Origin: a virus
Strand: one strand, 5' to 3'
Virus record (IMG/VR): IMGVR_UViG_3300021335_000086
Location: 1 to 24,658 of that record
Length of the DNA stretch: 24,658 bases
Below are positions 4,524 to 22,859 of the stretch, piece by piece. Position numbers and translations under genes: made by a program. The number at the start of each line of letters is the position of its first letter. Position 1 is the first letter of the stretch. Below the pieces are notes generated by a model. It had not been told where the DNA came from. It worked only from the letters and a program-made list of their open reading frames with translations, and did no database searches.

Positions 4524-4763
4524 TTACGCCGCAGCCCATTCGTCGTGAGTCTGGACTTCTCCGCTAAACGCCATGACTTCTTCAGTTGTCATAGTCGCAG
4601 GTAAGTCGCGTAGATACTGACGGTATCCTGCATAGGATGTTTGAGCCGCCTCATCCAACCCACTGTCGAGGAACTGTGTACGATCAGTTTCTGCTAGCGC
4701 TGCATTACGCGCCGTACGAACAGCGTTCAGAGCGATTGTTTCTTCTGGTGTTTCAGGTGTCAT
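4524..4763 (-). CDS. Tail-assembly-chaperone-like small protein (Phage_tail_APC type)
   Basis: The 79-residue protein contains R-T-A-R-N-A-A-L-A-E-T-D-R-T-Q-F-L-D followed by SYAGYRQYLRDLP. This is the signature I know from Phage_tail_APC proteins and from the C-terminal chaperone domains of phage tail-fibre loci (pattern R-x4-L-x-x-T-D-W-T-x-x-x-D ... YRQxLRDLP). Here the usual Trp after TD is Arg. It follows the glycine-rich fibre gene, so it may help fold or attach that fibre. No slippery sequence or frameshift product is evident. A GGAGTAGAG ribosome site precedes ATG 4763. Confidence 0.75.
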   Translation of the reverse strand: MTPETPEETIALNAVRTARNAALAETDRTQFLDSGLDEAAQTSYAGYRQYLRDLPATMTTEEVMAFSGEVQTHDEWAAA

Positions 4764-4777
4764 AATCTCTACTCCTA

Positions 4778-6130
4778 TTAGCTTGCTACAACTGTCTCGT
4801 CAGCGCCCGCATGGGGTGCTTGATTTGGGTAACTGCCCCCGATCAACAGACGGGCACCGCCTGCGGCACCGCGACAGAAGTTTGAGTTGCTGTTAACAGA
4901 TGTACCGCCACCTGCTGCTCCGCCGCCGTAGGCACCGCCTTCACCGTGGTAGATAGTGTAGCTTGACAAACCTGTGTCTTCGCCGCCTTGAGAGCTTTCA
5001 CTAGAGTTGTTGTTCGAGCCGCCATCGAAGCCGCCGGAACCGCCTTTACCCTCATACAACTGACCGCTTGAGTAGCTGTAGAAGCTGTTGCCGCCGTTAT
5101 TACCGCGTCCAGTACCGCTACGGCCTTCACCGTAAAGACCGACTCCGCCGCCTCCGGCAAACGCGTAAGTTGAGGAATCATAACCAGTTCCTCCGCCGCC
5201 TGCGCCGCCTGTACCGTTTACAGAGCTGTTGTAGGTGTTGTTGGTGTTACCTGTAGTACCGTAGTAACCGTTACCACCGTTACCTGTGTAGCCGCCTGCA
5301 CCGCCGCCACCGCCGTAACCGTTGTTGGAGACAAGACCACCGCGACCGCTGTCGATGTTGCCCGGTTGGATTGCTCCAGCTTTTGGGTTACCGTAGCTAG
5401 TGTTGCGTGATGTGCCGCTGTACTGCCCGCCTTGCGCACGGAAAAGTTCGCCACGCGTGCTTGAGGTTAGAATACAGTCGCGACCGTGGTTTTGGTTCGA
5501 AGTGCGGGTAGGCACGCTAACTGTCAAAATCTCGCCCGGTGTTACAGCGAAGTTGGCCCAAGCAAGAGCGCCGCCACCGCCGCCTGAGTTAGCCCATTGA
5601 TATCCGCCACCGCCGCCTGAGCCTACAAGAACTGCGGCCATATTATACACGCCACTCGGTACTGTGTAATTGCTTTCGATGCTTGTGTTTAGATTGGTGG
5701 AATTGTGACCCATGGTGTAGGTACGCCCGATCCTTTTAGCGATCGATTCACCAGCTGAACTACCGAAACCTGTCCAAACATGTGTACCAGAGATGCCAGC
5801 GCCAGAGTAGTACCAAGCCTCGCCTGTATTAGTGTTGAACCACAATTGTCCAACTGCGCTACCGGCAGTGGTGGTAGTAGGGTTACTTGTGTTCAGTGCG
5901 GGCGCGAGAGACGCCAGAGTTGTGTTTAGGCTTGTTTCGTAGGTACCTAGTTGGTCTGAAACGTAAGAATTTACCTGACTAATGGCGGTCGCCATGTCCT
6001 GCATGTCGTAGACACTAGAAAACGCTTCTAGTGATTTTGTAAGGAGAAGAAGTTCCTTCTCCGCTAGTCCGCTAGCATTATTCAGTTTTGTCTGAAGTGT
6101 GCTAGTAAAGGTTGAAATGTCGATACTCAT
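4778..6130 (-). CDS. Glycine-rich tail fibre / receptor-binding protein
   Basis: This 450-residue protein begins with a short helical module (FTSTLQTKLNNASGLAEKEL) that is also found at the start of the adjacent 416-residue fibre. A helix-rich stretch follows, then a small beta module around GQLWFNTNTGEAWYYSGAG. From about residue 155 to the end it is dominated by Gly-rich runs (GSGGGGG, GGGGGAGG, GGAGGGG, GGGGVG, GGSGGF, GGAAGGG) alternating with Asn/Ser/Tyr segments. This composition is that of polyglycine-II sandwich adhesins such as the S16 gp38 receptor-binding tip and other phage glycine-rich tail domains. The GGARLLIGGSYPNQAP end is common in such fibres. It likely contacts the host surface. 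An AGAGGTG site precedes ATG 6130, one base after the previous stop. Confidence 0.85.
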   Translation of the reverse strand: MSIDISTFTSTLQTKLNNASGLAEKELLLLTKSLEAFSSVYDMQDMATAISQVNSYVSDQLGTYETSLNTTLASLAPALNTSNPTTTTAGSAVGQLWFNTNTGEAWYYSGAGISGTHVWTGFGSSAGESIAKRIGRTYTMGHNSTNLNTSIESNYTVPSGVYNMAAVLVGSGGGGGYQWANSGGGGGALAWANFAVTPGEILTVSVPTRTSNQNHGRDCILTSSTRGELFRAQGGQYSGTSRNTSYGNPKAGAIQPGNIDSGRGGLVSNNGYGGGGGAGGYTGNGGNGYYGTTGNTNNTYNSSVNGTGGAGGGGTGYDSSTYAFAGGGGVGLYGEGRSGTGRGNNGGNSFYSYSSGQLYEGKGGSGGFDGGSNNNSSESSQGGEDTGLSSYTIYHGEGGAYGGGAAGGGTSVNSNSNFCRGAAGGARLLIGGSYPNQAPHAGADETVVAS

Positions 6131-6131
6131 T

Positions 6132-7382
6132 TTAGAACACCTCTGCTAAGATTAAGACTTCATTGTCGTCGATTTTGCCGTTCAACGTTTCGGAGTCGAT
6201 TGAATCCGCCAACGCTTGGGCTTGGGCTTGTGCAGCTTCCGCTGCGGTTTGAGCTGACTGCGCCGCATTCTTGTAATTGTTTGCATTGGTCTCGCTCGTT
6301 GCCGCATTGGTTTCTGATGTGGCAGCTGCACTAGCGCTCGCGGCACTCTGAGAGGCGGAGTTTGCTGATTGGGCTGCACTGTTGGAGCTTGCTGACGCGC
6401 TGCTCGCGGCGGCGTTTTTAGAACTAAGAGCGCTTGAGGCGCTGCCTGCGGCAGATAACTGCGCTGCTTCGGCGTCTAGTTCACTTGCACGCGCTGCGTT
6501 TTTACTCGTCAACGCGCTGTTCATATAGCTGTTTGCGTTCTGCATGTGGCTATATGCATTCGACTCGCTAGTTGCTGCCGCAGATTGACTTGCTGCCGCC
6601 GCCTGAGAACTTGCCAACGCGTTAGCAGCTTCAGTCGTAGCGATTGTTTCTGGAGCAACCCAGCTTGAACCATTGTAGAACCGCAGCGTGTTAGTGCTTG
6701 AGTTCCAGTAAATGTCACCTGAATTTAGGGCGTCACCGTCGTTGTCTGTTGTTGGGTCAGAAGTTTTAGAGCCTAGGTACTGATCGCCAAACTGATCGAA
6801 CACGCTCTCAGTTGTTGACTGTGCTAGCTCCGCCGCTGCTTGGGCCGCTTCTGCCGCTGCCTGTGCTGTTTGAGCTTGTGTTCGTGCAGTCTGAGCAGCG
6901 CTTCTTTGGTTAGAAGCCCCTAGCTCGCTGTACTCAGCGTTTTGCTGCGCTGTCTCTGCTGCCGCTTGAGCCGCTTGAGATGCATCACGCGCTGTCTCTG
7001 ACGCAGCCTGTGCTGTTTCAGAATGCCCTTGCGCCACCTCGGACAAGTTCTGAGCAACTTCCGCTAGGTTCTGTGCAGTTTGGGCTGCGCTTTCGCTGTT
7101 TGCCGCCGCAGTTTCGCTCGCCGCCGCTGCCGCTTGACTTGCTGCCGCTGCCGCTTCACTTGCCGCTGCGTTTAGTTTGTAAGTCTCAGCCAAGTCGCGG
7201 GCTGCTTCCGCAAGCGCTCGTTGGTTGTTAGCGATTAAGACTTCCGCTTGGATTTCGTCGAGAGCAACGTTGTCGATGACCGACTCGATAGCCTTACTGA
7301 TAAGCAGTAGTTCTTTGGTGTCGGTCGCGTTATTCAGCTTATCCTGAATGGTCGCTCTAAAAATTTCAAAACTTAGTGCCAT
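6132..7382 (-). CDS. Alanine-rich coiled-coil tail fibre protein
   Basis: The 416-residue protein consists of an N-terminal module (FRATIQDKLNNATDTKELLL) homologous to that of the glycine-rich fibre, then two long Ala/Ser/Gln/Glu heptad tracts (about 50-200 and 255-390) made of repeats like AAAASETAAANSESAAQ. Between them is a short beta insert (YLGSKTSDPTTDNDGD, YWNSSTNTLRFYNGSSWVAPE) at roughly 205-245. Such Ala-rich trimeric coiled coils form the shaft of T7- and cyanophage-type fibres. It ends NGKIDDNEVLILAEVF, a tail shared with the next gene upstream. Base composition follows the Ala/Ser repeat (GCx, TCx) and creates many shadow frames. Order in the operon is 74-aa, 416-aa, then glycine-rich fibre. 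Confidence 0.88.
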   Translation of the reverse strand: MALSFEIFRATIQDKLNNATDTKELLLISKAIESVIDNVALDEIQAEVLIANNQRALAEAARDLAETYKLNAAASEAAAAASQAAAAASETAAANSESAAQTAQNLAEVAQNLSEVAQGHSETAQAASETARDASQAAQAAAETAQQNAEYSELGASNQRSAAQTARTQAQTAQAAAEAAQAAAELAQSTTESVFDQFGDQYLGSKTSDPTTDNDGDALNSGDIYWNSSTNTLRFYNGSSWVAPETIATTEAANALASSQAAAASQSAAATSESNAYSHMQNANSYMNSALTSKNAARASELDAEAAQLSAAGSASSALSSKNAAASSASASSNSAAQSANSASQSAASASAAATSETNAATSETNANNYKNAAQSAQTAAEAAQAQAQALADSIDSETLNGKIDDNEVLILAEVF

Positions 7383-7383
7383 G

Positions 7384-7608
7384 TCAGATTCCTACCAAAG
7401 CCAGAATTTCAGCGTCGTCGATTTCTTGAGCATCGCGTAACGCAGCAGAACCCAGTTCCAAGTTGGACCGGGCTGCGCTTTTGTCTGTAAGTTCTGACAA
7501 GTTACTTGTACGTTCTAGCTTCTCGCTGTTGAGATTAGTGAAGTTGGAGTCAACTTCGGCATTAGTAAGAGGTCGCTCAAGAGCTTGTCTTAATGTTAAA
7601 TCTGCCAT
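7384..7608 (-). CDS. Mini tail-fibre protein (74 aa)
   Basis: The 74 residues contain LTLRQALERPLTNAEVDSNF followed by TNLNSEKLE. This is the 'L-T-x-x-E-x-D-x-N-F-x-N-L' pattern seen at the N termini of many phage fibre and virion attachment proteins. NLSELTDKSAARSNLELGSA resembles the 'NLSDL..AATARTNLGLG' repeat of fibres. It ends QEIDDAEILALVGI, matching the end of the 416-residue fibre. It therefore looks like a condensed fibre (head, one repeat and tail) rather than a fragment. GGAGG lies 6 bases before ATG 7608, and the stop is separated from the next start by one base, so it is well placed to be translated. Confidence 0.8.
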   Translation of the reverse strand: MADLTLRQALERPLTNAEVDSNFTNLNSEKLERTSNLSELTDKSAARSNLELGSAALRDAQEIDDAEILALVGI

Positions 7609-18701: not shown

Positions 18702-19067
18702 GTGCCGCGAAAATCAGCAGAAGGCCGCAAAGCCTACAACAAAGAATATAGCAAACGCTGGTACGCCAAGAATAAAGAAAAGCAGAAGGCCAGAGCCGCC
18801 GCAAACCGCAAAAGGCAGTACCAAGAGTGGGTTGAATACAAAGCATCGCGCGAATGTTCTGTATGTGGTGCCTCGCACCCTGCGATCATAGATTTTCACC
18901 ACATTATCCGTAAAGACAAACAATCCGTTAACGTATTAGTGAAGAACGGACGTTTCGGAGCAGCCTACAAAGAGGCTGAGACCAAATGCATACCTATATG
19001 CGCCAACTGCCACCGGAAGCACCACTGGGAAGAACGGCGCAAAACTCCCCCTAAAGACCGCGACTGA
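18702..19067 (+). CDS. HNH endonuclease (packaging-associated)
   Basis: The 121-residue protein starts from GTG 18702; no ATG is suitably placed and no ribosome site is visible. A basic N terminus (KSAEGRKAYNKEYSKRWYAK) precedes an HNH domain. It has C52-x2-C55 (CSVCG), the H66/H67 pair in AIIDFHHI, and C100-x2-C103-H104 with H107 (PICANCHRKHH), where the cysteines bind structural zinc and the histidines with N102 form the nicking active site. Small HNH proteins next to terminase genes assist cos cleavage in several phage groups. The neighbouring terminase and the G/C tract at 19162 fit that role. A free-standing homing-type HNH is the alternative. Confidence 0.88.
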   Translation: MPRKSAEGRKAYNKEYSKRWYAKNKEKQKARAAANRKRQYQEWVEYKASRECSVCGASHPAIIDFHHIIRKDKQSVNVLVKNGRFGAAYKEAETKCIPICANCHRKHHWEERRKTPPKDRD

Positions 19068-19612: not shown

Positions 19613-20107
19613 ATGCTTACTCTTAAACAACTTAACCAGAAAATCGCTGGTATCCGTCGCACTACTGCGGCACTTCGTGAAAACATCCACGTTGTATTGT
19701 GCAACGCTGCGGGTCATGCGTACGAACACGGCGACGTGACGCCACTCGCTAATCTATTCGAGGCCACATCAGGTGTAAACCGCAAGCGTATCGCTGCTTG
19801 GGTGCGTGACAATGGTTTCGCCATGCTGCAAAAGGATGGATCATTCAAACTCAATAAGCAAATGCGTAAAGAGGCGGACTTCACCGACGGTGATGCGGTC
19901 GTCGAATATCTCACCAACGAAGTACCTGCTTGGTACGTGGATGAGGAAAGTGCTGCTCAAATCGTTAAAGAGTTGGACGCAGTTCAACGTATCAAATCCT
20001 TAACAGCTCAAATCGCCAAAGAAGGCGCGGTCGTCAAGAATGTGGACTTCGCGGCATACCGCCAAGCAATGGAAGACTTAGATGCTGCTATCCGCCAACA
20101 CGCATAA
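19613..20107 (+). CDS. Conserved phage protein with an 'EHGD' helical domain (164 aa)
   Basis: The protein starts with MLTLKQLNQKIAGIRRTTAA, a helix, and then NAAGHAYEHGDVTPLANLFE, followed by NRKRIAAWVRDNGF. I recognise the pattern 'A-x-x-H-x-x-E-H-G-D-x-T-x-[LI]-x-x-L-x-x-A ... R-x-x-A-[FL]-x-x-W-[LV]' from many phage early genes; its function is not established. The rest is helical, with KKDGSFKLNKQMRKEAD-like basic segments and a C-terminal coiled coil. GGAGG lies 6 bases before ATG 19613, one of the strongest ribosome sites of the right arm. It stands alone between two long noncoding regions, so it is probably a monocistronic, highly expressed early protein; nucleic-acid binding is possible but unproven. 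Confidence 0.85.
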   Translation: MLTLKQLNQKIAGIRRTTAALRENIHVVLCNAAGHAYEHGDVTPLANLFEATSGVNRKRIAAWVRDNGFAMLQKDGSFKLNKQMRKEADFTDGDAVVEYLTNEVPAWYVDEESAAQIVKELDAVQRIKSLTAQIAKEGAVVKNVDFAAYRQAMEDLDAAIRQHA

Positions 20108-20117
20108 AAACCATGTG

Positions 20118-20135
20118 TGGGGTGCTTGCACCCCA
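20118..20135 (+). terminator. Hairpin after the 164-aa gene
   Basis: TGGGGTG (20118-20124), loop CTTG, CACCCCA (20129-20135) is a perfect 7-bp stem, 11 bases after the stop codon. No U run follows. It probably marks the end of the monocistronic message, by termination or by 3'-end protection. Confidence 0.55.
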
Positions 20136-20147
20136 TGCACCCACCAA

Positions 20148-20435
20148 TAAGACAGAAAAGTTTTGTCTTGTTCGTTGTCTTAATAGCAGAAAATGCCAAG
20201 TGACTGTTTTTATTAATAGAAATAGATAGATTAAGACAATAAGACAATAAGACAAAGAAAAAGAGAGAGATGTAAGTTTGCTGAGTGTGTGTTGCGTCGG
20301 TGTAAATCGCGAGCATGTTTGGCATCCCCCACATCTCATTCTCTGAGCCTGTCTTAATGTCTTAATACTGTAAAATCAAACACTTACAAGCAAGACACTG
20401 TCTTAATAGCTTTGTCTTAATACCACTTTGTCTTG
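20148..20435. repeat. Array of 12 TGTCTT[A/G] repeats in both orientations; candidate origin or operator
   Basis: TGTCTTA or TGTCTTG occurs on the plus strand at 20164, 20176, 20350, 20358, 20399, 20413 and 20429. It occurs on the minus strand (read as TAAGACA or CAAGACA) at 20148, 20231, 20240, 20248 and 20391. Most extend to TGTCTTAATA. There are direct clusters with 8-9 bp periodicity (20231/20240/20248 and 20350/20358) and inverted pairs able to form hairpins, the best around 20149-20169. The intervening DNA is A/T-rich (20190-20270). The gap holds no credible gene. Iteron-type origins and multi-site repressor operators have this look. Confidence 0.75.
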
Positions 20436-20995: not shown

Positions 20996-21273
20996 CACGT
21001 AAGAAACTAGACCCGCTTGGGGAAAAGATGATCGCGTTCGGCAGCGATGGTAAATCTAGCGTAGCTGTTGAGTTCCACGTCACTACTAAGGGTGTGTACT
21101 TTTACATCACATCAACAGATGAGAAAGCGCAGATGGTCAGTGTGAAGTTAACCGCTGACGACATGCGTAATCTGCGTGGAGTTATCAACAACTGCTTGCG
21201 CTGTGAGACAGAGTTAAGTGGTCGCGAGGTACCAACGCGCAGCGTCGGTGGACTGCACAGTAGGTATAGGTAA
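20992..21273 (+). CDS. Unrecognised small protein (93 aa)
   Basis: The 93-residue frame starts in the ATGA overlap with the preceding gene. KSSVAVEFHVTTKGVYFYIT and AQMVSVKLTADDMRNLRGVI suggest four or five strands followed by a helix containing C68 and C71 (NNCLRCETEL), a possible metal or disulfide pair. The last 20 residues are basic and polar. No family is recognised. Tight coupling on both sides (stop 5 bp before the next ATG) indicates expression with its neighbours. Confidence 0.7.
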   Translation: MTRKKLDPLGEKMIAFGSDGKSSVAVEFHVTTKGVYFYITSTDEKAQMVSVKLTADDMRNLRGVINNCLRCETELSGREVPTRSVGGLHSRYR

Positions 21274-21277
21274 TCAC

Positions 21278-21766
21278 ATGAATATATTTGTTCTCGACAT
21301 GGACCCCACCGAGGCGGCGATAGCACAGTGTGACAAGCACGTTGTTAAGATGCCGTTAGAGTGCGCCCAGATGTTATCCACCGTACACCATATCTATGAC
21401 AGTGATCGCGTAGATGAGGTGTATAAAGCAACCCACCGCCACCACCCTTGCACAGTATGGGCGGCAACTTCACGTAATAACTACTACTGGCTGTACGATC
21501 ACTTCGAAGGATTGTCCCAAGAATTCCGTTATAGATACGGTAACACTCACAAGTCTTGGTTCAAGTTGCGCGACACGCTGCGACACCCACCCGACACGCT
21601 CAAAGCAGTCGGACTAACGTCATTCGCTCAGGCTATGCCCGACGAATACAAATGTGACGACGCCGTCGTTGCATACCAACGGTTCTACAAATCAGAGAAG
21701 AAATCCTTTCTGACGTATAGCAAACGCTTGCCTCCAGATTGGCTCGACGATCCACGAACCTATTAA
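21278..21766 (+). CDS. Conserved phage protein of the 'CDKHVVKM' family (162 aa)
   Basis: The start at ATG 21278 (MNIFVLDMDP) is chosen over the in-frame ATG 21218 because the family begins exactly here and AGGT lies upstream. Conserved blocks are DPTEAAIAQCDKHVVKMPLE, HRHHPCTVWAATSRNNYYWL, YRYGNTHKSWFK, then FAQAMPDEYKCDDAVVAYQR and FYKSEKK. I know this as a widespread phage and bacterial family, sometimes annotated as pyrimidine-dimer DNA glycosylase-like, but I have no firm basis for that activity. The many invariant Cys, His, Lys and Asp residues suggest an enzyme. It is followed by a promoter-like gap before the MoxR gene. Confidence 0.75.
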   Translation: MNIFVLDMDPTEAAIAQCDKHVVKMPLECAQMLSTVHHIYDSDRVDEVYKATHRHHPCTVWAATSRNNYYWLYDHFEGLSQEFRYRYGNTHKSWFKLRDTLRHPPDTLKAVGLTSFAQAMPDEYKCDDAVVAYQRFYKSEKKSFLTYSKRLPPDWLDDPRTY

Positions 21767-21799
21767 CGTGTTGACACCTTATGTGTTTACATGTAACCA
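21762..21799 (+). promoter_or_regulatory. Candidate promoter with GTTAAC-type element before the MoxR module
   Basis: The plus strand has ATTAACGTGTTGAC (21762-21775), a copy of the recurrent element, containing TTGACA at 21771-21776. Seventeen bp later lies TAACCA (21794-21799), a weak -10. Predicted start is near 21806, giving a 40-base leader with AAGGAG before ATG 21846. The element overlaps the stop of the upstream gene. Confidence 0.5.
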
Positions 21800-21845
21800 T
21801 ATGAAACCACTTGCGCACGTATGTGCATACAAGGAGCTAAAAACC

Positions 21846-22859
21846 ATGCCAAGTATTTCTCAGATCGCTGACACTGTCACTGCGATGTTCCGCAATTCCC
21901 CCAAAGTTGTACCTATGATCCACGGTGCGCCCGGGATGGGTAAGTCGGAAGTATGTCTCCAGATCGCCGAGCGTCTGGACATCCCCAAAGATCGTGTGCT
22001 TGTAGTACACATCAATAATCACGACGTCGTTGACTTCACTGGTGTGCCCAGTGTGACCGACGGATACACGCGTTTCAATCCAACCGAGATATTCGCCAAG
22101 TTCCGCAAAGGTACTGGTAAAGGTCTTATTATCTTGGAGGAACTCGCACAGTCCACGACTCATCACCAGACGTGGGCAGCAGGCTTCACGCTAGAGCGTG
22201 CGACTACATCGTTCGAACTAGATGACGACGTGTGCATCATTGCTACAGGTAACCGCGCTGAAGACCGTGCGGGTGCTAAACCACTACTCGCTCACTTGAA
22301 TGATCGTATGTATCACTTCGATGCTGAGACATCGCTCGACGATTGGTGCGAGTGGGCAATGGACAACGGTGTCAATGCAATGGGTATCGCGTTCTTACGT
22401 CTACGCCCCAACTTGCTCAATGACTTTGACCCTAACAGACGCAGCAACCCAACGCAGCGTTCGTGGACTAAGTTGTTCAAAGAAGTACCTGACGACTTGC
22501 CGACTGATCTGTACATGATGGCAGCAGAGGGTAAGGTCGGCGAAGGTGCAGCAGCCGAGTGGGTCGCAGCGCGTGACATGATGCAGAAAATGCCAAGCAT
22601 CGACGCTATTCGCTTACACCCTAAAAACGCAGAAGTCCCGAAAGAACCTGCGGTGCAGTATGCAGTAGCCACAGCGCTTTCAATGTCGACGTCTGTCGAC
22701 GCGTTCGAGCGTGATATCGACTACATCAGTCGTATGCCTAAAGAGTTTCAGATGGTCTACGTCACTGATGCAATTCGCCTACATCCACAACTTCAAACCA
22801 CTAAGTTCTTTATCAATTGGGCGATCAACAACAAAGACATCTTTATGGGAGGTAACTAA
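21846..22859 (+). CDS. MoxR/CobS-type AAA+ ATPase
   Basis: The 337-residue ATPase starts at ATG 21846, with AAGGAG upstream; an in-frame ATG at 21768 would lie in the promoter region. Motifs are Walker A GAPGMGKS at 27-34, Walker B GLIILEEL at 93-100 (E98 in place of the usual Asp, E99 catalytic), sensor 1 IIATGNRAEDRAG at 131-143, and the arginine-finger region HLNDRMYHF around R154. A C-terminal lid follows (RSNPTQRSWTKLFKEVP, VGEGAAAEWVAARDM). MoxR-family ATPases act as remodelling chaperones with VWA-domain partners, as in CobS-CobT magnesium/cobalt chelation. Here it begins a coupled set with DUF7303-, DUF3150- and DUF2201-like genes. Confidence 0.9.
   Translation: MPSISQIADTVTAMFRNSPKVVPMIHGAPGMGKSEVCLQIAERLDIPKDRVLVVHINNHDVVDFTGVPSVTDGYTRFNPTEIFAKFRKGTGKGLIILEELAQSTTHHQTWAAGFTLERATTSFELDDDVCIIATGNRAEDRAGAKPLLAHLNDRMYHFDAETSLDDWCEWAMDNGVNAMGIAFLRLRPNLLNDFDPNRRSNPTQRSWTKLFKEVPDDLPTDLYMMAAEGKVGEGAAAEWVAARDMMQKMPSIDAIRLHPKNAEVPKEPAVQYAVATALSMSTSVDAFERDIDYISRMPKEFQMVYVTDAIRLHPQLQTTKFFINWAINNKDIFMGGN

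Follow-up and report, generated by a model that had tools for sequence, protein, structure and literature searches.

The array of short repeats at positions 20148 to 20435 of the window (the whole 24,658-bp stretch of viral DNA analyzed here, IMG/VR record IMGVR_UViG_3300021335_000086) is, with a probability of about 80%, the replication origin of a lineage of ~55-63-kb phages in which a primase-helicase with a DUF927 domain would act as the reader of the repeats, the function of the array and its binding by this protein being inferred. The best reading is that of an iteron origin similar to those of the SaPI and PICI elements, with an initiator that would be encoded ~17 kb away, beyond the window contig. 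It should be noted that the record comprises these 24,658 bp only and that the rest of the genome plan is taken from relatives.

A letter search of the window locates 12 copies of TGTCTTR within these 288 bp, seven on the plus strand and five on the minus strand, starting at 20148(-), 20164(+), 20176(+), 20232(-), 20240(-), 20248(-), 20350(+), 20358(+), 20391(-), 20399(+), 20413(+), and 20429(+), and this recount agrees in number, strand, and position with the initial annotation of the sequence. Nine of the 12 are TGTCTTA, a word that is found 13 times in the whole 24.7-kb window as against a mean of 3.18 in shuffled sequences, none of which reached 13; the four copies outside the array are single and dispersed over the window, and the motif is not equally frequent there. 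The longer form that had been attributed to most copies is not general, as exact TGTCTTAATA is present in only 4 of 12 and the minus-strand copies are mostly TGTCTTATTG. Iterons 1 (20148-20154, minus strand, template offset 0), 2 (20164-20170, plus strand, a TGTCTTG variant, offset ~16), and 3 (20176-20182, plus strand, offset ~28), which are assigned from the motif and conserved offsets, are followed by iterons 4-6 (20232-20254, minus strand), a tandem series of 8-bp units that reads TAAGACAA TAAGACAA TAAGACA. The spacer between the two iteron sets (20255-20349) has at either end one arm of an imperfect inverted repeat, AGAGAGAGATGT / ACATCTCATTCTCT, and begins with an A+T-rich (here A-rich) tract, 20255-20275, which is positioned by reference to relatives and is the proposed site of melting; in the window, the A+T content of the 30 bp that follow the triple is 67%, compared with 50%. 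In relatives, the stretch richest in A+T is not the whole of 20190-20270, the region that had been suggested, but the ~20 bp right after the third tandem unit. Beyond the spacer are iterons 7 and 8 (20350-20364, plus strand), a pair 8 bp apart on the strand opposite to the triple, iteron 9 (20391-20397, minus strand), a TGTCTTG variant assigned from the motif, and iterons 10-12 (20399-20435, plus strand, offsets ~250, 264, and 280), assigned from the motif and conserved offsets. The array is free of genes, as the initial annotation held: no credible gene overlaps it, and the open reading frames there are mechanical.

Late genes (tail, capsid, portal, terminases), recognized by position and similarity, are on the minus strand up to 18609, and the gene for the terminase small subunit is ~1.5 kb from the array. 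The early genes are on the plus strand and comprise a 164-aa gene upstream of the array (phrog_1448, 19613-20107) and, downstream of it, small genes, a pyrimidine-dimer-glycosylase-like gene, and a gene for a MoxR-like AAA ATPase (21768-22859, plus strand), which served as an anchor for finding relatives. The glycosylase-like protein (Pyr_excise, phrog_624) is encoded at 21218-21766 in the early operon, and no ortholog of it was detected among the class-A members of the set of twelve genomes described below. An HNH endonuclease-like open reading frame with a GTG start (18702-19067, phrog_3106, E 1.4e-17) lies where the late and early modules diverge. A GC-rich hairpin, GGGGTGCTTGCACCCC (20119-20134, plus strand), follows the 164-aa gene and precedes the array; this hairpin is kept in relatives (e.g. 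L072 and L089) as AGGGCGCTTGCGCCCT followed by a run of T; it is possibly a terminator, and a terminator scan of the window did not call it. The slot before the array is subject to exchange, being occupied either by the 164-aa phrog_1448 protein or by a protein of ~155-169 aa with no evident similarity to it, with the same array behind both (seen in the window and in L058, L109, L111, L113, L115, L121, L133, L136, L141-L144, L148, and L163).

When the terminase, the 164-aa protein, and MoxR were used as queries, 162 loci were recovered, and in most of those that extend far enough, the same slot carries an array, often with a different word; in close relatives the array is at the same position. 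When each array is searched with its own word and placed in the orientation of the window, a template of offsets emerges, 0(-), 16(+), 28(+), 85(-), 93(-), 101(-), 201(+), 209(+), 250(+), 264(+), and 280(+), that recurs across nine or more words. The geometry is kept in 65 distinct arrays, in the common order of three tandem 8-bp units, an A+T-rich tract, a spacer, a pair on the opposite strand, and three to four further copies; the tandem triple at 8-bp spacing is present in 59 of the 65 and the 8-bp pair in 52. The plus-strand pair is 99-103 bp away from the third tandem unit in 40 of these 52 arrays and 109-117 bp away in 11, and these two spacing groups are about one helical turn apart, which would fit a protein complex that is held on one face of the DNA. 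The ~20 bp that follow the third tandem unit have a mean A+T content of 0.82-0.83 in 56 aligned arrays, compared with 0.52 for the loci. Many arrays of classes A and B also have a semi-conserved element resembling GTGCAAAACGCGC midway through the spacer, with CTCTCTC ahead of the plus-strand pair. An open reading frame of ~60 or more codons (MYREI...EKALF...VLLSYY...) runs through the spacer and the right-hand iterons in L058, L121, L141, L148, and L132; it is probably not coding, as the substitutions in it lack a clear third-position bias (43/34/29).

The near-complete genomes (G001-G005 and G011) have a common plan of 55-63 kb that encodes a family A DNA polymerase, an SNF2 helicase, a PD-(D/E)XK nuclease, MoxR and VWA proteins, and a DUF927 protein of ~980 aa. 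In G004, the array is at 42.15 kb and the helicase gene at 22.4-25.4 kb, and the two are similarly separated in the other genomes; the window contig stops short of the helicase gene, which is ~17 kb from the array in relatives, and the protein is for this reason missing from it. The GC skew has its inflection no more than ~1 kb away from the array in G005, near it in G011, and ~5-6 kb away in G001, G002, and G004, and in the relatives this inflection coincides with the switch in gene strand. Two genomes contain a second, unrelated cluster of short words, TAGGTAA (six copies, at 28071 of G001, L177) and GCTAAGA (eight copies, at 4897 of G011, L192), and a small protein of the early module in G005 (L189, 15136-15444) resembles sigma-70 region 4 by eye.

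Although the geometry is kept, the word is not. On the strand of the triple, the unit is TAAGACAA in class A, to which the window belongs, TTAGACAA in B, TATGACAT in C, TATGACGT in D, TATTACAT in E, TATTACGT in E2, TGCTACAC in F, and TATTGTTC in G, and more variants exist. Within an array, the word differs from those of the other classes in all copies together, and classes A and B, C and D, C and E, D and E2, and E and E2 differ from one another by one base. Arrays with mixed words are found in L003 and in parts of class B and look as intermediates would. The clearest pair for inspection is L072 (class A, TAAGACA) and L089 (class C, TATGACA), which are 95% identical over 3.6 kb of late genes and have almost identical spacers, but nearly every copy of the motif in the stretch that they share is changed at the same base. 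On the terminase tree, the twelve word classes require 14 changes. A concerted change of this kind would call for a sequence-specific protein whose preference has been altered.

Candidates for this protein were compared across all twelve genomes in which both the array and the DUF927 protein are found, seven of class A and five of class B. Their early regions were fetched, and every shared early protein was scanned for class-separating columns, defined as those with a single residue in one class and no more than two in the other. Nine such columns are present in the DUF927 protein in the 7 class-A and 5 class-B genomes, and four of them fall within 20 residues of the predicted C-terminal winged helix (class A/class B: 935, K/R; 937, Y/(T,V); 938, I/L; 954, F/(L,I)), whereas 0-1 columns were counted in each of ten further early proteins sampled in the same way; as the set contains only two independent A/B contrasts, a formal pair test is without power. 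A 182-aa protein, sampled in 7 + 3 genomes, has five class-separating columns, but these are spread out, and clustered residues that follow the class are therefore confined to the DUF927 primase-helicase among the early proteins of the twelve genomes. The class-A locus L221 branches inside class B by the rest of its DUF927 protein, yet its wing has the class-A residues; a class-A wing (K-[C/V]-Y-I-G) is also what would be predicted for the initiator that belongs to the window. It seems reasonably likely that the geometry of these arrays is rigid and that at least eight 8-bp words, several of which are one or two bases apart, have succeeded one another stepwise, with about ten copies rewritten together and matched by residues in the wing of a fused primase-helicase-binder.

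The 164-aa protein, which the initial annotation had put forward as the partner to be tried first, is not supported as the reader of the iterons. Many TGTCTTA arrays are preceded by the dissimilar ~155-169-aa gene in its stead; its alleles are alike in L074 (class A) and L123 (class C) and different in L089 (class C), and zero columns separate A from B among 18 and 11 proteins, respectively. Its structure was modeled with confidence (pLDDT 90), and the model had no significant match in the PDB. MoxR also fails the class-column test. A search for bacterial genomes with the DUF927 helicase found none, and a search for additional long contigs with both parts yielded almost none with MoxR beyond those already used; several contigs stop before the array.

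The match of the primase-helicase to DUF927 (PF06048) covers residues 428-681 of 984 (99.4 bits versus a cut-off of 22.6, E 3.8e-28), and the helicase part also matches the Cch helicase (5dgk, E 3.6e-13) and 8tch by sequence. The N terminus was not matched by family models; by eye, it contains conserved DDFDVD, SSGGGYHCY, and AVDMDSARILRP motifs that can be compared with the DxD, SGGGxH, and hD of AEP primases. In a model of the C-terminal 420 residues, the AAA+ part failed (pLDDT under 50), but a winged-helix domain is usable (pLDDT mostly 60-87), and in it residues 935-938 fall on the strand of the wing (model residues 371-374, confidence about 60-70). The closest match to this modeled domain is SaPIbov1 Rep (8tch; Z 8.5, rmsd 4.5, 113 residues), and others are SCCmec Cch (5dgk; Z 7.5, rmsd 3.4, 93 residues), a DUF1528 domain (2ipq; Z 7.3), and the oriT-binding accessory protein of pCW3 (5vfx; Z 7.0); these Z scores are middling and a fold alone shows no function, so that the weight of the matches comes from their agreement with the sequence hits, 5dgk and 8tch appearing in both, and with the class test. 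Foldseek, applied to the model including the poor AAA+ part, gave no significant match. In G005 (L189), the DUF927 gene (4590-7444) is split into three frames, by sequencing error or by real breaks.

In the mechanism that we propose, the ~980-aa phage protein, with a predicted N-terminal primase-polymerase and a central MCM-like DUF927 helicase, would read the 8-bp iterons through its C-terminal winged-helix domain. Loading would take place at the tandem triple and at the pair in the opposite orientation, probably in the form of two hexamers that face each other. The loaded helicases would open the A+T-rich tract next to the triple, continue to unwind in the outward direction, and prime synthesis for the family A DNA polymerase of the phage.

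The initial annotation had offered an iteron origin or a multi-site operator, and the former is the better supported, through the kept geometry, a word that tracks the C-terminal domain of the helicase, and the A+T-rich tract, from which we infer origin activity. As an operator, the array would be bound by a phage repressor or activator that controls the downstream early operon (small genes, MoxR, VWA). It does lie upstream of that operon, behind a GC-rich hairpin at which the 164-aa transcript could terminate, and such a regulator would also suit the concerted change of word. However, the primase-helicase is the only early protein with residues that cluster by word class, the placement of the triple beside an A+T-rich tract and the inverted pair fits an origin, and a promoter scan of the array, which is a weak test, found no sigma-70-like site; an operator consequently appears unlikely. 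Many phages recruit host initiators, and the array could be the same origin with a host or other phage protein binding first and the helicase recruited second; this is quite improbable, given that the word class tracks the wing of the phage helicase in twelve genomes and that the differing words in very close relatives would need hosts of differing specificities.

Two further explanations are less probable still. In favor of a packaging (pac) or terminase-binding site are the proximity of terS and terL and the ability of terminase small subunits to bind repeated sites, but TerS and TerL have no column that separates A from B (34 versus 11 and 30 versus 11 proteins, respectively), a result that also speaks against them as the readers of the word; the late genes remain 95% identical in DNA across the L072/L089 class switch, and TerS is almost unchanged between L074 (A) and L089 (C), making such a site very improbable. 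An RNA-level element, in which the inverted repeats fold as a structured leader or an antisense-type RNA, is the least credible. The window strand, taken as RNA, folds far better than its shuffles (z -5.69), as is expected of any array with copies on both strands, but the two strands carry unequal numbers of copies, which lack one-to-one pairing, the spacer alone, as single-stranded DNA, folds no better than shuffles (z -0.67), and pairing offers no reason for the word to follow residues of the helicase.

The interpretation as an iteron origin can be compared with described systems. The origins of PICIs "always" consist of two iteron sets that flank an A+T-rich region (PMC6092414), and the SaPI Rep, apparently as two hexamers, recognizes the iterons through its C-terminal domain; Cch is a relative of SaPIbov1 Rep (PMC7581432). 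The initial annotation knew of no described phage origin with this motif, which may hold for the word, but the organization is close to that of SaPI and PICI origins (PMC6092414, PMC7581432). The phage array resembles these replicons, among them SaPIbov1 Rep-ori and the E. coli PICI origins, in its two sets of short iterons on either side of an A+T-rich region (here the triple and the pair, with the 82-83% A+T tract of the 56 arrays), in the pairing with an AAA+ helicase encoded by the element and having a C-terminal DNA-binding domain (here predicted, in the DUF927 helicase of the relatives), and in iteron words that vary between elements (PMC6092414, PMC7581432). It differs in that the SaPI origin is directly downstream of rep, whereas the array is ~17 kb from the proposed initiator, in belonging to a 55-63-kb phage in which primase and helicase are apparently one protein, and in having an 8-bp unit in a fixed template of at least 10 sites, with neighboring classes one or two bases apart. 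The lambda-type origin also has clustered iterons that adjoin an A+T-rich region, but these sit within the gene for the initiator O, which is not a helicase, whereas the present array lies between genes and a long way from the initiator proposed for it. The alpha protein of phage P4, which acts with ori/crr, combines in one polypeptide the functions of primase, helicase, and origin binder, the iterons being short and present in both orientations. The DUF927 protein, in its proposed role, resembles alpha in this respect, although the arrangement of primase and helicase in alpha is of a different kind. PMC6092414 makes mention of P4 alpha and its ori. For DUF927 domains that are joined to primases, a role as replicative helicases of mobile elements has been predicted (PMC5862659), and the Cch and Cch2 proteins of SCCmec are similar in the DUF927 (Cch) helicase fold and in a C-terminal domain, that of Cch2, that reads direct repeats (PMC7581432). 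In contrast, the Cch2 origin, which is putative, as is the replication of SCC in cells, consists of three 5-nt iterons, and the primase of SCCmec is a separate protein.

A cultured relative, Pseudomonas phage Rollin (OR577172), has a terminase with 43% identity and a helicase with 25% identity over 97% of its length (E 3e-68). Eight of its nine copies of TATGCAA are inside 420 bp, at positions 260-679, in an unannotated cluster ahead of the late genes that includes TTGCATACTTTGCATACTTTGCATA followed by TTTATATACAAAATAATAATAATAATAAGG, a tandem triple at 9-bp spacing with an A+T-rich tract after it. Judged by these features, Rollin carries the same plan with a 9-bp unit and allows direct tests. 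The Rollin record (OR577172.1) has about 9.5 kb without an annotated feature (51781-61282) and a run of N near position 1000. Rhizobium phage RHph_TM3_14A has the layout and helicase residues 79-522 in common, and its gene-free gap contains A+T-rich near-repeats only. Within the collection of literature that was searched, nothing was found on Rollin or on such origins in phages.

The origins of most uncultivated phages are unknown, and the array provides a candidate that extends across a lineage, together with a proposed initiator. It would link the replicons of the SaPI and PICI satellites to a large phage lineage. Because close relatives differ at nearly every copy, the question of how a ten-site origin changes its code without losing function is open to direct experiment. 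If the proposed reading is correct, the words and their readers would constitute a natural series of mutually exclusive, and possibly orthogonal, pairs of origin and initiator inside one phage lineage.
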